From Candidatus Iainarchaeum sp. (GTDB lineage Archaea > Iainarchaeota > Iainarchaeia > Iainarchaeales > JAXPJC01), in NCBI GenBank assembly GCA_018304445.1, contig JAGVWD010000066.1, forward strand, positions 1 through 5,815: a DNA stretch of 5,815 bases. The letters are read 5' to 3'. The position numbers were made by a program, and so were the translations under genes. Under the pieces are notes generated by a model. That model made no database searches and was not told the origin of the DNA. It worked only from the letters and a program-made list of their open reading frames with translations. Position 1 is the stretch's first letter, and the number at the start of each line of letters is the position of its first letter. Positions 90 to 5,815 of this stretch are shown here, piece after piece.

Positions 90-120
90 TATTTTATTTT
101 CTCTTTTTTCCGGCCTTTTT
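90..120 (+). terminator. T-rich transcription terminator of the left-hand gene
   Basis: Directly after the stop at 87-89 the plus strand has runs of T (91-109 and 115-120) interrupted by few other bases. This is the usual form of an archaeal intrinsic terminator, which needs a T tract but no strong hairpin. It lies inside the 3' end of the opposite-strand lipid gene, whose Lys-rich tail (VKKAGKKRK) is encoded by the complementary A runs. Confidence 0.55.
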
Positions 121-885
121 AACTGAAGAGGTTATTTTTTTGAGGGTTGAGGAGAATTTCTCAATGCTTCCGTTGGATGCTTCCAAAGCGCTTCCCACAT
201 GGATTATGTCCGCGCCTGCTTTTATTGTATTGTAGGCGTGCTTTTCATTTTTTATTCCTCCGGCAACAACAAGCGGAACATCAATCAGGTTTTTCACGTA
301 GGAAATCATTTTCTGGGGGGCGGGTTCGGGCGCTCCGCCTCCTGATTCAAGGATTATTAAATGCGAGCCAATGTACTGGCCTGCAAGCGCCGTAATTCCC
401 CCGAGGTAATCAAAGCTTCTTGGAATTAACTGCGCCCGGCCAACCCATCCCACCGCGCGGCCTGGCTCGACAATTATATAGGATGTTGGGATAACTTCCA
501 AACCCAATTGCTTTACAGGATAGCTTGCGGTTATTTGCGCGCCGCTCAAATAATATGGGTCAAGGGAATTCAGCATCTGCATGAAGTAAATCGCATCCGC
601 ATATCTGCTTATTGTTGCAATATTCCCGGGAAAAAGAATCACTGGCAGCGAGGAATTCTCCTTTATTGCCTTTATGCATTCGTCCAATAATGCGCCCTGC
701 GCGCCAACGCTTCCCCCAACTGCAAACGCATCCAATCCGTTTGCTTCCGCCGCCTTGGCAATCCTTCCGCACTGCTCAGGAATATATTTTGGCGGGTCAA
801 GCTGCATAAAAGTGAGCGCCCCGCTTTTATCAATCCCGTCAAGGATTTTCTGATACACCTTCCCGAAATGCCCTTCCTTCTGCAT
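94..885 (-). CDS. Geranylgeranylglyceryl phosphate synthase (phosphoglycerol geranylgeranyltransferase)
   Basis: The 263-residue product belongs to the GGGP synthase/PcrB TIM-barrel family. This enzyme joins geranylgeranyl diphosphate to sn-glycerol-1-phosphate and forms the first ether bond of archaeal membrane lipids. Family landmarks appear in the expected order: LDPPK (29-33; the aspartate of the DPxK motif), VGGS (56-59), LFPG (84-87), YYLSGAQ (111-117), VEPGRAVGWVG (139-149), ESGGGAPEP (180-188), AGGI (208-211, phosphate-binding loop) and GADIIHVGSALE (224-235). The VEPG.xVGxVG pattern and the length fit group II archaeal enzymes; I recognise the family by motif, not by search. The start is set at ATG 885 because the longer reading begins with TTG at 927 inside a TATA-like box. 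From 885 the spacing suits a transcript with a leader of only a few bases. The C-terminus is Lys-rich (KKAGKKRK). DPPK replaces the more usual DPDK/DPEK. Confidence 0.93.
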   Translation of the reverse strand: MQKEGHFGKVYQKILDGIDKSGALTFMQLDPPKYIPEQCGRIAKAAEANGLDAFAVGGSVGAQGALLDECIKAIKENSSLPVILFPGNIATISRYADAIYFMQMLNSLDPYYLSGAQITASYPVKQLGLEVIPTSYIIVEPGRAVGWVGRAQLIPRSFDYLGGITALAGQYIGSHLIILESGGGAPEPAPQKMISYVKNLIDVPLVVAGGIKNEKHAYNTIKAGADIIHVGSALEASNGSIEKFSSTLKKITSSVKKAGKKRK

Positions 886-913
886 AAAATCACAAGAATT
901 ATTAATCAAAACA

Positions 914-923
914 GGTTTAAAAA
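914..923 (-). promoter_or_regulatory. BRE/TATA-like promoter of the GGGP synthase gene
   Basis: Read on the minus strand the sequence is GCTTTTTAAACC, a good archaeal TATA box. Its centre is about 34 bases before the ATG at 885, so initiation about 26 bases downstream would fall near 893 and give a leader of about 8 bases. No Shine-Dalgarno sequence is visible. The box overlaps the alternative TTG start at 927, which argues against that start. Confidence 0.6.
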
Positions 924-962
924 GCAAGCGCCTGCCGAAACATCAAAAGTACATTCAACGCA

Positions 963-984: not shown

Positions 985-2949
985 TCAGCCGCCCTTGAGC
1001 AGCTTTGTGAAAAATACAAGGTTGAAATCCCCGCTTGTATCGGGCCCCACACCCCAGACAAGGTCAAGCTTATCAAGTCCTGTTTCTGCCTTTGCATCTG
1101 GATTTGCCCTTGCCACATTTGCCCCAAGAGAATTGCTGGTTAGGTTCACTATGCTGTCAAAGCTTGAGCTGGAAGCATTATAGCGCCTATAGAACAAGTC
1201 ATCCCCTGCACTCCACATATGCCAGAAGAAATAAACATTATTGTCGGAATCAACGCTCATTGAGGGCATCCATCCTTCAACTGCAGTAACAGCAGCTAGT
1301 GGGCTCCAGTTGCTGATATTGCTGCAGTCTGATGTGCATGACCTGTAGAGAATTCCCTGCCAAGAGCAGTCAAATGCCACATAAATTTTTCCAGCAGAAT
1401 CCTGAGCCATGTATTGATGCAACCTGCCATAATAGCAATCGCTGCCTGCGCTGAGATTTACATCAGCACTCCAGTTGCTTAGGTTGTTGCAGCCAGTTGT
1501 GCAGGTTTTGTAGAGGATGTTTCCATCCCAGAAGGTTAGGTGCTTTGTGCCGTCGTTGTTTACTATAATTTGGGAGTTGGCTGCTGTTGTGTTAACAGTC
1601 AATTGGCTGCTCCAGTTGCTTAGGTTGTTGCAGTCAGCAGTGCAGTTTGTGTATGAAATGCCGGGGGTTGTATCAAGGGTCATATAAAGCGTGTTGGAAT
1701 CTGCAGCAAGCGATGCCCTGAAGGTATTAAATGAGAAATGTATTGGTGTAGACCAGTTATTTTGGTTTGTGCAGTTCTGCCTGCACTGGCTGTAAAATGT
1801 GGTATACCATCCGAAGGTTGGAGGATACATATGGCGCCATGCAACATTTATGAAGCCGTTTGAATCAACAGCAATTGTAGGATAGGCAGACCCAATTTGC
1901 GCACCTATGGGGTTTTTGCTTATGTTTGCTGGAGCGCTCCAGGTGCTTCCATTGTCATCGCTCTGGATGAAATATACTTCTGAACTAGTGTCATTGAATT
2001 CTCCGCTTGCATATACAAAATAAAGTACATTGCGCTCTTTGCTTCTTGCAAGCGCCTCCATGTTTCCAGACACATAATCTATGCCGCCTCCATATGCAAA
2101 TGCTGATTTTGCAATGTACTTGTAGAGCATGAAATTGGTGTCTGAGGAGTCCTCGGCGCTTGAGGCCTCATCTGAAACTTCCAGATCAAGGTAATGGCGC
2201 CCTGACGTCTGTATGCCGTATGCATTCCAATCATAGTAGCAGGTCTGCGCTGTTGTGAAGTCCCCTCCCCCGGAGCAGTTCCTGTCGGGCTGCGGGCTCT
2301 GCGCGAGGCTGAGAAGATTCAAATTCTGCACAACAGGAACTTTCTTTTCTCCGGGTAGCGCGCTGTAATAAATATCCGCCTGCGGGTTTGAGTCATCCAG
2401 ATCAAAGACTGTGAATTTTATTATCACTTTCGGCCCGTTGCTCCAGAAGTCGCCTCCGTTGTTTGGGGATAACAGGGCTGTTTGCGGCGGGATGTTCGGG
2501 ATTGTAATTGGCACAAAAAGGGCAGTGCCTGCGCAGGCCGCCTTCTCAACGTGGGCCGCGCCCCTCCTTGTCTTGTAATTTATTTTTATTTTTCCGCTGT
2601 AGGTCTGCCCCTGCGAAAGGCTTGTTATGCAATATATGTTGAAATCAGCTGTTGCATTTATTGCTGATGAGCTTGGGGCGCAGCTGCCCGCCAGGCCTTC
2701 TGTCGCTTCCGCGCTCACATTTGTAATCCTTTCGCCGGTTCCGTTGAGAAGATAAATCACAAAATTGCCGTTTGAATCAACTGTATGATCTGAATAGGCA
2801 AACTTTTCAAGGCCCGTGCAGGTGCTTGCTGTCGGCAGTTTTATGATGCCCGTGAAGATAAGCACGCCGGCAACTATTGCTATTATGACAAGGGCAAAGC
2901 CGTATGTCATCAGGTATTCCAGCGCGGCCTGCGCCCTTCCGGAGTGCAT
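985..2949 (-). CDS. Class III signal-peptide (pilin-like) surface protein with a Cys-modified sialidase-type beta-propeller
   Basis: This 654-residue protein starts MHSGRA|QAALEYLMTYG followed by a hydrophobic helix (about 14-36). It is a class III signal peptide as in archaellins and archaeal type IV pilins, with Q7 at +1 and E11 at +5, normally cut by an EppA/FlaK-type prepilin peptidase. Residues 40-150 look like a pilin-type beta domain, and 155-275 like a linker or second beta domain. From about 296 a propeller begins. Blade 1 carries a canonical Asp-box (SDDNGSTW, 330-337). Blades 2-5 have C-x3-C plus NWS (Cys 389/393, 436/440, 483/487, 538/542), and blade 6 (about 585-604) lacks the cysteines. 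Outer strands repeat DSNGxxxxxW-like motifs (362-371, 517-526, 567-576). About 20 N-x-S/T sequons suggest heavy N-glycosylation. No sialidase catalytic set could be verified, so binding or adhesion is likelier than hydrolysis. It is probably a minor pilin or tip adhesin on the cell surface; host or glycan attachment is inference. Confidence 0.85.
   Translation of the reverse strand: MHSGRAQAALEYLMTYGFALVIIAIVAGVLIFTGIIKLPTASTCTGLEKFAYSDHTVDSNGNFVIYLLNGTGERITNVSAEATEGLAGSCAPSSSAINATADFNIYCITSLSQGQTYSGKIKINYKTRRGAAHVEKAACAGTALFVPITIPNIPPQTALLSPNNGGDFWSNGPKVIIKFTVFDLDDSNPQADIYYSALPGEKKVPVVQNLNLLSLAQSPQPDRNCSGGGDFTTAQTCYYDWNAYGIQTSGRHYLDLEVSDEASSAEDSSDTNFMLYKYIAKSAFAYGGGIDYVSGNMEALARSKERNVLYFVYASGEFNDTSSEVYFIQSDDNGSTWSAPANISKNPIGAQIGSAYPTIAVDSNGFINVAWRHMYPPTFGWYTTFYSQCRQNCTNQNNWSTPIHFSFNTFRASLAADSNTLYMTLDTTPGISYTNCTADCNNLSNWSSQLTVNTTAANSQIIVNNDGTKHLTFWDGNILYKTCTTGCNNLSNWSADVNLSAGSDCYYGRLHQYMAQDSAGKIYVAFDCSWQGILYRSCTSDCSNISNWSPLAAVTAVEGWMPSMSVDSDNNVYFFWHMWSAGDDLFYRRYNASSSSFDSIVNLTSNSLGANVARANPDAKAETGLDKLDLVWGVGPDTSGDFNLVFFTKLLKGG
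1300..1809 (-). repeat. Tandem blade repeats with C-x3-C...NWS signature inside the propeller gene
   Basis: Four successive repeat units (residues about 381-550) carry Cys pairs at 389/393, 436/440, 483/487 and 538/542, each followed 6 residues later by a Trp-Ser. Spacing is 47, 47 and 55 residues. At DNA level a 24-base segment is identical at 1469-1492 and 1610-1633, exactly 141 bases (47 codons) apart, and a diverged version lies near 1304-1331. This points to fairly recent duplication of a blade unit. Confidence 0.85.
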
Positions 2950-2969: not shown

Positions 2970-3009
2970 TATTAATAACCCTGTTTTTGGGCTTTATTTT
3001 TAAGTTTTG
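2970..3009 (-). promoter_or_regulatory. Candidate promoter(s) of the pilin/propeller gene
   Basis: Two minus-strand TATA candidates precede ATG 2949. The distal one, AAAACTTAAAAATAAAG (about 2992-3008), has an A-rich BRE-like flank and would give a leader of about 24 bases. The proximal one, GGTTATTAATACC (about 2968-2980), is centred about 25 bases before the ATG and would give a leaderless mRNA. No Shine-Dalgarno sequence lies between 2950 and 2972, which slightly favours the leaderless reading. Confidence 0.45.
2984..3000. repeat. 17-bp direct repeat, copy 2 (upstream of the propeller gene)
   Basis: Identical to 963-979 in the same orientation. This copy overlaps the distal TATA candidate of the surface-protein gene (minus strand AAAATAAAGCCCAAAAA), so it may include promoter sequence. 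Confidence 0.8.
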
Positions 3010-3023
3010 CCTATGGAAAACAA

Positions 3024-3037
3024 CAAAGGTTTAAATA
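3024..3037 (+). promoter_or_regulatory. Strong BRE/TATA promoter of the small SWIB-like gene
   Basis: CAAAGGTTTAAATATGC is a near-ideal archaeal BRE plus TATA box (TTTAAATA at 3030-3037). Initiation about 26 bases downstream would be near 3060, leaving a leader of about 40 bases before ATG 3100. It is divergent from the promoter of the surface-protein gene. Confidence 0.7.
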
Positions 3038-3085
3038 TGCATAGGGCAGTAGTTATATTGGCTTTGAAAAAAGCTTATTCTGATT

Positions 3086-3091
3086 GGGAGG
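3086..3091 (+). promoter_or_regulatory. Shine-Dalgarno sequence of the SWIB-like gene
   Basis: GGGAGG ends 8 bases before ATG 3100, an ideal spacing. It is the clearest ribosome binding site in the window; the larger genes have weak or no such site. It fixes ATG 3100 as the intended start rather than the in-frame TTG at 3058. Confidence 0.75.
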
Positions 3092-3099
3092 AAAAAACA

Positions 3100-3262
3100 A
3101 TGGCTACTAAGAAAGCATTAAGCATTTGGTGGTTATAGCATATGCTTCAAGGGCTGCAACGAAACAGCGCAGGACATCTTCGGCACAGGCAATCTGGCGC
3201 CGAGCGAAATGACAAAGAAGATCTGGGCATATGTGAAGAAGAAGGGAATAGCCGGCAAGTAA
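3100..3262 (+). pseudogene. Frameshifted small SWIB-like half-domain protein
   Basis: From ATG 3100 the frame gives MATKKALSIWWL and stops at 3136-3138. A second frame (3122-3262) continues with AFGGYSICFKGCNETAQDIF and then GTGNLAPSEMTKKIWAYVKK before TAA. An exact 7-base tandem duplication at 3113-3126 separates the two. Removing one copy joins them into a 51-residue protein starting MATKKAFGGYS. Its second half resembles the N-terminal half of SWIB/MDM2-fold domains, which share a pattern like G.G.M.R.E..KK.W.YIKK; such proteins are DNA- or protein-binding and chromatin-associated in other organisms. It ends after KKKGIAGK, shorter than a full SWIB domain of about 75 residues. There is a C-x3-C pair (CFKGC). 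The excellent promoter, Shine-Dalgarno and terminator imply a recently functional, well-expressed gene. A sequencing or assembly error is a real alternative. The SWIB assignment is by eye and moderate. Confidence 0.7.
3113..3126 (+). repeat. 7-bp tandem duplication causing the frameshift
   Basis: AAGCATTAAGCATT is two perfect head-to-tail copies of AAGCATT. Seven is 1 modulo 3, so the extra copy shifts the frame by +1 and brings in a stop 12 codons after the ATG. Deleting either copy restores an open frame to 3262. Confidence 0.9.
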
Positions 3263-3310
3263 TTGCTTGCTGAGCTTTTTCTTTTTTTTATTTTTCTGAT
3301 TTTTTTGTTG
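3253..3310 (+). terminator. Hairpin plus T-rich terminator of the SWIB-like gene
   Basis: GCAAG (3255-3259) can pair with CTTGC (3266-3270) around a 6-base loop, extended by a G-T and a C-G pair, so the small hairpin spans the stop codon. It is followed by long T runs at 3276-3280, 3282-3289, 3291-3295 and 3301-3306. Together this is the clearest terminator in the window and separates the small gene from the downstream 100-residue gene. Confidence 0.7.
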
Positions 3311-3326
3311 TTGCTATTTAGGAAGA

Positions 3327-3337
3327 TTTTTATATAT
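3327..3337 (+). promoter_or_regulatory. TATA box of the 100-residue basic protein gene
   Basis: TTTTTATATAT follows GGAAGA, a BRE-like purine flank. Its centre is about 25 bases before ATG 3357, the spacing of a leaderless transcript. A GAGGG stretch at 3346-3350 could act as a Shine-Dalgarno only if initiation occurs further upstream than predicted. Confidence 0.6.
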
Positions 3338-3356
3338 CTCTCTATGAGGGATAGTT

Positions 3357-3659
3357 ATGGCACTTCTTGCAAAAAAGCCGAAAGCGCTTGATAGAATGCT
3401 GAACAAAAAAGAAAGGCAACGATGGAAATCATCTAAAGGCATAGCCTATCCCAGAAAGAGGCGCCCTTTAACTGTTGCACAAGTTAAAAAAATTCTTATC
3501 AAGAGCGGAGCACTCCTGAACGAGAAGGATGTTAATGCCAAATCACGTTTGGTGGGGGCTAGCTACGGGAACGAGAATTTTCTGATTGACTTAAGAAAGG
3601 TTCCTAGGAATTTGCTGCGTCTGCTAAAATATGGGCCTGTGCGGCGTGTTAGTGAATAG
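3357..3659 (+). CDS. Small highly basic protein of unknown function
   Basis: The 100-residue product is not one I recognise. It has about 27 Lys/Arg against 7 Asp/Glu, so it is strongly positively charged and may bind nucleic acid. Residues 1-37 are basic and polar, with clusters KKERQRWK (17-24) and PRKRRP (32-37). Residues 38-55 could form an amphipathic helix (LTVAQVKKILIKSGALL), and the C-terminal part (VGASYGNENFLIDLRKVPR, then NLLRLLKYGPVRR) looks like strands and a helix. There are no Cys residues, signal peptide or membrane segment. It has its own TATA box and stands alone between a terminator and the RPA promoter. ATG 3357 is supported by the TATA spacing. It uses a few CGT/CGA/CGG Arg codons, a little unlike the AGG-rich RPA gene. 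Confidence 0.75.
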   Translation: MALLAKKPKALDRMLNKKERQRWKSSKGIAYPRKRRPLTVAQVKKILIKSGALLNEKDVNAKSRLVGASYGNENFLIDLRKVPRNLLRLLKYGPVRRVSE

Positions 3660-3695
3660 GACAAGATAGGCCAAAAGTTTTGAATTTATAAATTA

Positions 3696-3731
3696 TTCAT
3701 CGGCAATCCGCTCCCGAAAGCATTTTAATGG
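3696..3731 (+). promoter_or_regulatory. Composite 36-bp promoter element upstream of RPA (copy 1)
   Basis: The element reads TTCATCGGC, 5 variable bases, GCTCCCGAAAG, then a TATA-like ATTTTAATGG. The same layout occurs at 5780-5815 with 28 of 36 positions identical. CCGAAAG occupies the BRE position. TCGG and CCGA form an imperfect dyad 10 bases apart, which could be an operator. With the TATA centred near 3725, initiation would be near 3750, just before ATG 3758. Confidence 0.65.
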
Positions 3732-3757
3732 ATTTGCAGGACACTTCTTCTGAGAGC

Positions 3758-5131
3758 ATGGAAATCCCTATAGTTGAGAGAATATGCAAGGGTTCTGGAA
3801 AGACCCCTGCTGAACTGCAGAAGCTGATTGAGCAGAAGAGGAATAAATTCTCCGGACTTCTTACCGAGGAAGGCGCGGCGCTGCTTGTTGCAAAGGAACT
3901 GAATGTGAGGCTTGATGCTGATGCTTTTCCTGAAAGGATGAAAATTTCAAATCTGCAGGACGGCATGAAGGGCGTTGTGCTGCTCGCGAGGGTTATGCAG
4001 GCCTATCCTGCAAGAAACTTTGAGAAATCCGGCAAAAAGGGAATGCTTGCAAATCTGTTGGTTGCTGACAATTCCGGGGAAGTGCGCCTGACTCTCTGGA
4101 ACGAGGATGCGAAGAAGGCTGATTCTTTGGGGATAGGGCGCGGAACTGTTTTGATGCTGAAAAACTGCAATGTAACAAGCTATAACGGAAAATTGCAATT
4201 GAGCCTTGCATATGGCGGGGAGCTTGCTGCAAATCCGGAGAGTGCGGATGAGAAGGAGCTTCCGAAAATTGAGAAAAGGGAATTGAAAATCTCAGGGCTG
4301 CAGCCAAACCTGAATTCTGTGGATGTAATTGCAAGGGTTGCGCGGGTTTATGGGAGAAAGGAATTCCAAAGCGCTTCGGGGAAGGGGGAGATGATTGCGT
4401 TTGAAATTGCCGATGAAACCGGAAACATCAGGGTTGTTGCCTGGAATTCAGCAGTTGAGCAGGCAGCAAAACTGGCTGTTGGGGAAGCCGTAAAAATAGA
4501 GAACGCATACACAAAGGAGGGCCTTAACGGGGGCGCGGAGCTGCATCTGGGGTTTAATGCAAAAATTACCCAAAACCCGAAAGACGCAAACCTTCCTGAA
4601 TTGCCAAAGGAGGTGTTTGAAAGGAAAGCGCTTGCGGAATTGGGTGAAAACCAGAATGCGGAAATTTCCGCAACCATTGCCGAAATCAACAGAAGTGCGT
4701 TAAGATATTTTGCATGCAGTTCCTGCGGCAAAAAGCTGCAGAAGCTGGGGGACAAGTTCCTGTGCGAGAAATGCGGCGAGCAGAGGGAGCCGAAAATTGA
4801 ACTGGTTGCATCAGTTGCATTGGAAGATGCAGGCAGCGCAATAAATGCGATCTGCTATGGGGATGAAGCTGAAAAAATTTTCGGCATGGGAAGGGAGCAG
4901 GTAAATTCCGAATTGAGGGCAAAAAGCGCCGAGGAAGTGCTTGAGGAGATAAGGGATAAAATTGCGGGGAAGCAGTTGAAAGCAATAGGGTATTTGCGCA
5001 CAAACAGGCGCACAAATGAAAAGGAATTCGTAATTAAGAATGTAATTGAAATCGGAAAGGAAAAGAAAGCAGCAAAAGAAGCGCGCGCAGAAAAAAGCAT
5101 TGAAGTTGAAGAGCCTGCGAAGTTTTATTAA
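3758..5131 (+). CDS. Replication protein A (archaeal single-stranded DNA-binding protein, OB folds plus zinc finger)
   Basis: The 457-residue product matches euryarchaeal-type single-subunit RPA, which coats single-stranded DNA in replication, repair and recombination. Numbering from ATG 3758: residues 1-55 form the helical N-terminal module typical of archaeal RPA (IVERICKGSGKTPAEL, LLTEEGAALLVAKELNV). OB fold 1 spans about 60-155 (NLLVADNSGEVRLTLWNE) and OB fold 2 about 177-272 (FEIADETGNIRVVAWN). A third OB-type domain (about 296-435) carries a C4 zinc site, Cys 320, 323, 336 and 339 (C-x2-C-x12-C-x2-C). A charged helix follows, then the acidic tail EVEEPAKFY. An upstream in-frame ATG at 3728 would add 10 residues but lies inside the TATA box, so 3758 is preferred. 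The stop overlaps the first ATG of the next gene by one base, suggesting an operon. Confidence 0.93.
   Translation: MEIPIVERICKGSGKTPAELQKLIEQKRNKFSGLLTEEGAALLVAKELNVRLDADAFPERMKISNLQDGMKGVVLLARVMQAYPARNFEKSGKKGMLANLLVADNSGEVRLTLWNEDAKKADSLGIGRGTVLMLKNCNVTSYNGKLQLSLAYGGELAANPESADEKELPKIEKRELKISGLQPNLNSVDVIARVARVYGRKEFQSASGKGEMIAFEIADETGNIRVVAWNSAVEQAAKLAVGEAVKIENAYTKEGLNGGAELHLGFNAKITQNPKDANLPELPKEVFERKALAELGENQNAEISATIAEINRSALRYFACSSCGKKLQKLGDKFLCEKCGEQREPKIELVASVALEDAGSAINAICYGDEAEKIFGMGREQVNSELRAKSAEEVLEEIRDKIAGKQLKAIGYLRTNRRTNEKEFVIKNVIEIGKEKKAAKEARAEKSIEVEEPAKFY
5117..5131 (+). promoter_or_regulatory. Possible internal TATA box for the 214-residue gene
   Basis: GCGAAGTTTTATTAATGC at the end of the RPA gene resembles the BRE/TATA of the RPA promoter (CCGAAAGCATTTTAATGG). 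Its centre is about 34 bases before the third possible ATG of the next gene (5161), the same distance as for the RPA and GGGP synthase starts. It overlaps coding sequence, so coincidence is quite possible. Confidence 0.3.
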
Positions 5132-5775
5132 TGCAATTTGCGCATATGCTATTAGAGAACATGCCTGTAAAACCATTGCCACTAGGCGTGATTAAGAGAA
5201 TTGCAAAGAAACTTTCAAAAAACCCTGACATTGTAAGCAGGTTGCCAATCGCTGATATTCGGGCTGAACGAAAATATGGTAGGGATATAAAGCCATGGGG
5301 CTGGCGCGTTAGAGCAGCAAAAATAAAATATGGAAAGAAAAAGGTTAGCGCTGTCATTAAGAGGGTTCATGATGTTAGTGCAAAACCTCTTGTAAAGGGA
5401 ATTCAAAGAATTGTGAGGGAGCATAATGCAAAAATGCGCCCAAAATTATATGAGTTGAGGATGCCCCATGCCTATCCTATTGGAAAGGACTTTGTTGCAA
5501 TGGCAAGAACGCCTGCTCCAACAATTAAGGATATTATGAATCCAGACTCGCCTGCCCAGAAGGAGAGGGGCAGACGCTTTTTTGAGGCAATGAAAAAAGC
5601 ACACAACATAAGCACTAAGCAGCTTGATGCAGCATTTAAGGAACTTTGTGATAATTTAAAAAAGATAAACACAATAATTGAAACCCAGCCTTTTTGGCTT
5701 TGGAAAGACCAGTTCTTCGTGCTCGGCTATAAAAAGGGGAAATTCATTTTCATGCCTGTTATGGACATAGTATAG
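5131..5775 (+). CDS. Unknown protein linked to RPA, faintly kinase-like
   Basis: The 214-residue product is not one I recognise. The first ATG (5131) overlaps the RPA stop by one base, but ATGs at 5146 and 5161 (residues 6 and 11) are equally possible; 5161 would suit a separate promoter. Residues 15-105 are strongly basic and look mostly helical. Residues 111-136 (MPHAYPIGKDFVAMARTPAP, then TIKDIM) resemble the strand-hinge-helix passage of kinase-like folds, as in patterns such as P..Y..G.DF.VMEY..GPTL. The end (KDQFFVLGYKKGKFIFMPVMDIV) could match the strand pair leading to a DFG-like Asp. No HRD catalytic motif or glycine-rich loop is visible, so if related it is a degenerate or inactive form. 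There is one Cys (173) and no signal peptide. Base composition is more AT-rich than in RPA. Its position suggests a role linked to RPA, but this is not established. Confidence 0.75.
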   Translation: MQFAHMLLENMPVKPLPLGVIKRIAKKLSKNPDIVSRLPIADIRAERKYGRDIKPWGWRVRAAKIKYGKKKVSAVIKRVHDVSAKPLVKGIQRIVREHNAKMRPKLYELRMPHAYPIGKDFVAMARTPAPTIKDIMNPDSPAQKERGRRFFEAMKKAHNISTKQLDAAFKELCDNLKKINTIIETQPFWLWKDQFFVLGYKKGKFIFMPVMDIV

Positions 5776-5779
5776 AACT

Positions 5780-5815
5780 TTCATCGGCGGAATGCTCCCG
5801 AAAGTATTTAAAAGG
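5780..5815 (+). promoter_or_regulatory. Composite 36-bp promoter element (copy 2), for the gene beyond the window
   Basis: This is the second copy of the element at 3696-3731: TTCATCGGC, 5 bases, GCTCCCGAAAG, then TATTTAAAAGG, an excellent BRE/TATA box. It begins 4 bases after the stop of the 214-residue gene. The regulated start would be expected roughly 20-35 bases past the TATA, outside the window. Confidence 0.65.

Follow-up and report, generated by a model that had tools for sequence, protein, structure and literature searches.

Gene content of the window and the duplicated heptamer

The window, by which we mean the entire 5,815-nucleotide stretch of DNA analyzed here, carries at positions 3100–3262 a small gene whose reading frame is broken close to its start by an exact 7-bp tandem duplication. 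The features to which we refer are as follows, each with its coordinates, strand and the basis for its assignment:

94..927, minus strand: geranylgeranylglyceryl phosphate synthase (GGGPS) gene, intact (family search)
985..2949, minus strand: gene for a protein of 654 aa that is hydrophobic at its start; assigned to no family at curated cut-offs
3030..3037, plus strand: TATA-box-like element TTTAAATA, 70 nt before the ATG (exact match)
3087..3091, plus strand: Shine-Dalgarno sequence GGAGG, 8 nt before the ATG (sequence reading)
3100..3138, plus strand: truncated frame MATKKALSIWWL, 12 codons plus stop (translation)
3113..3119, plus strand: AAGCATT, copy 1 (tandem scan of the window)
3119..3121, plus strand: TAA at the junction of the copies, closing the downstream frame on its 5' side (translation)
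3120..3126, plus strand: AAGCATT, copy 2 (tandem scan); either of the two could be the added copy
3122..3262, plus strand: rest of the half-SWIB gene (P0001), 46 codons plus TAA, without a start codon upstream of the conserved core
3253..3295, plus strand: likely terminator, a hairpin (3253–3272) followed by a T-rich tract (terminator scan and folding)
3728..5131, plus strand: replication protein A-like (RPA-like) gene, intact (family search)

Within the window, the perfect AAGCATT tandem at 3113–3126 is the sole exact tandem whose unit measures 7–14 bases. Translation from the ATG at 3100–3102 gives MATKKALSIWWL and ends at the TAG at 3136–3138; the shifted frame encodes 46 residues (3122–3259) up to a TAA at 3260–3262, and the junction of the two copies itself creates the TAA at 3119–3121. 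The first-pass annotation, which had described the two perfect copies and a stop after 12 codons, was correct in its coordinates and its reading. As a pattern, a tandem of this kind is unremarkable by itself because 0.33–0.55 are expected per window: a first-order Markov model of the window gave 0.55, with at least one tandem in 35% of 300 simulations, and we counted 45 exact tandems in 86 related loci (792,148 bases), or 0.33 per 5,815 bases. It is a real finding because relatives of the gene lack these 7 nt, as described below. Direct reading of the sequence revealed no microhomology flanking the duplication, and a DNA hairpin at the site folded no better than those of shuffled sequences (DNA parameters, z 0.12).

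The signals expected around a functional archaeal gene have been retained, as was also reported initially for the promoter, Shine-Dalgarno sequence and terminator. An element of the TTTAAATA type with at most one mismatch was found in 25 of 38 upstream regions, versus 29% of mononucleotide shuffles; these regions are those of the window and of 37 phylum loci, three of 40 loci having been dropped for want of an ATG. All 38 regions had a Shine-Dalgarno-like word, as judged with a loose word list and no shuffle control. The terminator scan found one hairpin with a T tract, where 0.5 were expected, and folding of 3240–3310 with DNA parameters gave a z of −2.96, with 2 of 200 shuffles folding equally well. 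A bacterial sigma-70-type promoter was rejected as a candidate, the single match being at shuffle level (mean 1.1) and the promoter type being wrong for an archaeon. No tRNA genes or Rfam families were found in the window.

The order GGGP synthase, SWIB gene, RPA-like gene is the same in two of the 86 related loci, L035 and L017, whose records carry the title Candidatus Diapherotrites archaeon; there the GGGP synthases are 62% and 60% identical and the RPA-like proteins 36% and 40% identical to those of the window. This makes a Diapherotrites-like DPANN archaeon the probable source of the window. The other window proteins had no match in the 86 loci. Around the RPA-like gene there are open frames of 100 aa (3357–3659) and 214 aa (5131–5775), both below the Pfam and NCBIfam curated cut-offs, the latter with a weak PHROGs match (E 0.01). 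In addition, a 45-nt direct repeat with 73% identity between its copies (3687–3731 and 5771–5815) contains CTCCCGAAAG and an AT-rich box; one copy reaches into the beginning of the RPA-like gene, whereas the other lies at the end of the window. This repeat is perhaps a shared promoter element.

A family of half-length SWIB proteins

A search with the downstream piece, P0001, returned 608 candidates, all 608 of which were related proteins at E <= 0.01. Details were taken for the top 120 and the sequences of 34 were inspected; alignment A1 comprises 62 rows, namely 61 of the best 120 relatives and P0001 itself. The inspected sequences and the A1 rows show that the usual form of the protein is about 50 residues long, with the pattern FGGY...SEMTKK.W..VK. 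P0001 keeps every one of the 16 columns that are invariant in A1 (FGGY, F, G, FG, PS.MTK, W, K, K).

The first-pass annotation called the gene SWIB-like. Its relationship to SWIB held, with the qualifications that only the first half of the domain is covered and that the window piece, at 18.1 bits, falls below the cut-off of 25 for the Pfam SWIB/MDM2 family (PF02201). Two of seven relatives that were scanned passed this cut-off (P0015 and P0066, with 26.4 and 25.2 bits) and five missed it. The family is homologous to the N-terminal half of SWIB/MDM2, and it is the MTKKIWAYVKKK region that matches the first SWIB half. However, its members have about 50 residues versus the 74 positions of the model, and the best-matching stretches of the window piece and all seven relatives fall within positions 5–37 of the 74, so that none of them has the full two-half SWIB domain of about 74 residues. 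Based on sequence similarity, the gene product is a half-length SWIB-type protein, and its role is probably that of a small chromatin- or transcription-associated protein.

An AlphaFold model of the protein was of modest quality (pLDDT 72.7, pTM 0.50), and a structure search with it against the PDB gave no significant match. A sequence search of the PDB with the intact relative P0002 also gave no match, and a profile search returned weak matches alone, including SWIB chains and unrelated isocitrate dehydrogenases. None of the open-licence titles and abstract beginnings listed dealt with half-length SWIB proteins of archaea, which is not proof of their absence from print. The nearest literature, to judge from an excerpt of the paper, concerns SWIB/MDM2 proteins among the transferred genes of Patescibacteria (PMC12455944).

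Further relatives of the small protein come from records (L010, L038, L059 and others) whose titles name Rokubacteria, Methylomirabilota and Deltaproteobacteria, and from six IMG/VR contigs. Either transfer between domains or binning errors could account for the relatives in these bacterial-titled and IMG/VR records. Three further loci (L001, L003 and L005) are titled Falkowbacteria, Thaumarchaeota and Chloroflexi, yet they lie in genomes (G001, G003 and G004) that were placed in the same phylum as the Diapherotrites locus L035; the titles of these three records look misassigned.

Intact relatives and the age of the break

Two relatives show what the unbroken gene looks like. P0002 is a natural protein of 51 aa, in agreement with the intact length of 51 residues proposed initially; it is 93% identical to the window piece, from which it differs at 3 of 46 residues. 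P0003 (80 aa) also differs at 3 of 46 residues, three neighboring ones near the end. Its first 29 residues are identical (29/29) to the translation of window positions 3013–3099, after which it continues with MATKKA and the conserved core in an unbroken frame. The identity of the upstream residues, together with the unbroken frame, indicates that a very close strain has the whole gene. Positions 3013–3099 are presumably untranslated in life, and the N-terminal extension of P0003 looks like an effect of the gene caller.

We also compared 86 loci: the 80 best of the 352 confirmed in genome contigs, together with six from viral contigs. An in-frame start codon precedes the core in 85 of them, the exception being L002. 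We scanned for tandems between 90 nt upstream and 30 nt downstream of the core's first base, with no open frame required, and found no exact 7-bp tandem in any of the 84 loci with a recognizable core (L085 and L086 could not be placed). The same was true of 39 of 40 phylum loci, a set that overlaps the 86 and in which L127 has no core. The same scan did recover the AAGCATT pair of the window. The alternative named at the outset, in which relatives would have both copies and a conserved product of 12 residues, was seen in none of the 84 loci. Two single-copy relatives, L108 and L113, carry AAGCATTTGG at the corresponding place, and since the tandem is absent from relatives, we conclude that the window has a 7-nt insertion that arose by duplication. 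The coding frame is, in other words, broken relative to its intact orthologs. A DNA search with window positions 3000–5815 against 87 genomes of the phylum to which the genome of L035 belongs found no genome of the same species, the best match being 78% identity over the SWIB gene (G061).

The break is either recent or exists in the assembly only, based on the intact signals, the retention of all 16 invariant residues and the fact that we saw no second lesion in the window piece. This agrees with the initial view, which had been based on the signals, and the invariant residues now add to it. The comparison with L104 showed 5, 2 and 23 differences at the first, second and third codon positions over 44 codons, and that with L001 showed 4, 2 and 29, gapped alignments having been left out. 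Intact pairs can be less clear (8, 7 and 14 over 40 codons for L071; 13, 6 and 16 over 44 for L026) and the damaged remnant in L127 still gives 4, 4 and 15 over 22 codons; the test is therefore blunt and excludes only an old loss.

Matches to A1 at E <= 0.001 were found in 40 of the 87 phylum genomes, once in 39 of them and twice in G005; the remaining 47, some of which are perhaps incomplete, had none. Two of the 40 matching genomes hold copies damaged by other lesions. In G035 (L127, minus strand, approximately 1470–1550) there is a 28-residue remnant that has neither a start nor the invariant Trp. In G002, a Diapherotrites MAG (L002, L097), ATG GGA TAA at 4062–4070 of L002 is followed by an otherwise intact frame, the TAA being in frame two codons after the ATG. 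A third genome, G042 (L134, minus strand, 486–484, on a 1.24-Mb contig), has no in-frame ATG, GTG or TTG before the core; a well-placed AGGAGGG is followed by ATA at the start position, and an ATA start and a base error are both possible. The other 37 of the 40 phylum loci have an in-frame start codon. While the copies in G035, G002 and G042 could be sequencing errors, together they make loss of the gene in this phylum plausible.

Origin of the duplication and its meaning

We consider it most probable, at roughly 60%, that a conserved gene for a 51-residue half-SWIB protein has been inactivated by a recent, one-off 7-bp tandem duplication via slippage. The duplication would have arisen just after the fifth codon, most likely through slippage or misaligned repair during replication, which is an ordinary kind of spontaneous mutation. 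Ribosomes starting at the ATG at 3100 would then produce a 12-residue peptide and stop, and the remainder of the gene would lack a start. If cells carry this allele, they would have lost the function of the protein. For Sulfolobus acidocaldarius, an excerpt of PMC7785828 lists tandem duplications among the classes of spontaneous mutation. Loss of the gene seems to be tolerated in the phylum, as seen from the 47 genomes without a match and the damaged copies in G035 and G002. The locus resembles known frameshift pseudogenes caused by short tandem duplications in having an exact out-of-frame duplication, an early stop and a recognizable remainder; it differs from them in that the lesion is young and is known here from assembled sequence. 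Two points count against a frameshift in the organism: a gene that is nearly always single-copy where present should seldom show a broken consensus allele, and without microhomology or an unusual hairpin the site is not marked as a slippage spot.

The main alternative, which we regard as possible though distinctly less probable, is that the organism's gene is intact and the duplication is an artefact of assembly, either because two read stretches or contig ends with a 7-base overlap were abutted without being merged or because two strains were mixed at the site. An exact duplication with undisturbed flanks is what we would expect an unmerged overlap to look like, and the window is probably a metagenome record. 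The intact protein of the near strain and the conserved residues kept in the rest of the gene are likewise consistent with an artefact, and a mixture of strains is possible given that P0003 is identical to the window upstream but has its three neighboring differences near the end. Arguing against this alternative, the window has no second exact tandem in the 7–14-base unit range and the adjoining GGGPS and RPA frames are intact. Furthermore, the other lesions of the same gene in two related genomes suggest that loss does occur, although these could be errors too.

The first-pass annotation also thought phase variation conceivable, the two-copy form being the off state of a reversible slippage switch that is turned on by loss of one copy. 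An exact two-copy repeat near the start of a gene with intact signals and intact relatives would fit such a switch, as would the variable length of the tail ahead of FGGY and the short tandem repeats that it contains in some relatives. The distance from the start to FGGY is 4–35 residues in 118 of the 120 listed proteins, two having been set aside because FGGY or an initial M was missing and some of the long values, such as that of P0003, looking like gene-caller extensions; it is 4–31 residues in 97 distinct locus copies. Six of the 97 copies have tandem repeats in the tail, five of them exact. However, the units of these repeats are 6 or 15 nt and therefore in frame, which is partly a matter of ascertainment because an open frame was the condition for including the 97 copies and repeats that break it could hardly show there. 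Duplication within the tail looks natural, and there is no sign of its reversal.

Several other observations make a switch improbable. Usual contingency loci have repeat numbers far above two, whereas this site has only two copies and no homopolymer or multi-copy array. No hypermutable repeat tract is conserved among the relatives, as the two-copy 7-bp form was absent from every locus scanned, 84 from the set of 86 and 39 from the phylum set of 40, which overlap. The product is unlike a surface structure. No second state of the site was seen, and P0003 shows the existence of an intact form, not of two states in one population. The idea of phase variation has gained no positive support. In pneumococcus, an excerpt of PMC4022640 describes loss of the capsule by tandem duplication, and titles in its reference list name tandem duplication as a cause of high-frequency phase variation. 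The present locus is like the pneumococcal one, as represented in that excerpt, in having a tandem duplication within a coding frame, but the gene is archaeal, shows no sign of reversal or of two states, and has no indicated surface product. Among the open-licence titles and abstract beginnings listed there was no paper on phase variation of such a gene, which is not proof of absence from print.

Two further explanations are very improbable. In the first, ribosomes would hop 7 nt from GCA at 3115–3117 to the identical GCA at 3122–3124 and make the whole protein; the take-off and landing codons are indeed identical on direct reading, but any tandem duplication creates such a pair, no stop directly follows the take-off codon, local structure is not notable (z 0.12 with DNA parameters) and the relatives scanned have no such tandem. 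In the second, the 12-residue peptide would be the true product, and it does have a start and a Shine-Dalgarno sequence; against this, its initial MATKKA is that of P0002 and P0003, the remainder derives from the junction and relatives encode the long form. When the 43-aa frame around the peptide served as a protein query, no candidate came back, a weak test given that such short frames are rarely called, and one whose length range did not extend to P0003 (80 aa).

Taken by itself the lesion matters little, as it is one more young frameshift or assembly slip in a gene for which 47 of 87 phylum genomes have no match. In the protein searches, the orphan piece and the truncated frame of the window were both absent from the called proteins that came back. 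Short genes broken in this manner vanish from protein databases, so that it is easy to underestimate how often tiny conserved genes are lost.

The half-SWIB family is of more interest than the lesion. The MDM2 domain has a two-fold pseudo-symmetry, on which the matches listed from the open-licence literature held nothing on point, and there are indications that the family resembles both halves of the domain. With the full-length SWIB protein in L086 (from 3965), the A1 profile scored 30.0 bits for the N-terminal half and 9.8 for the C-terminal half; the C-terminal half alone scored 12.9 bits against A1, versus 8.1 for the best of 1,000 shuffles (869 of 1,000 reported). The PDB chains 1v31 and 1uhr gave very weak, individually insignificant matches to both halves. 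A resemblance to both halves, for which L086 is the one clear case beside these weak scores and to which the AlphaFold model lends no support, suggests from sequence comparison that the protein could be a homodimer and possibly an ancestral half.

Our broadest proposal is tentative and on balance unlikely to hold in full. It is that a widespread and hardly described half-SWIB family of DPANN archaea and some bacteria forms homodimers that rebuild the pseudo-symmetric SWIB/MDM2 fold, that it represents the ancestral half before duplication, and that short tandem repeats come and go in its Lys/Ala-rich N-terminal tail, a process of which the window would have an out-of-frame product. If the half-SWIB family does dimerize, it would bear on the origin of the SWIB/MDM2 fold.
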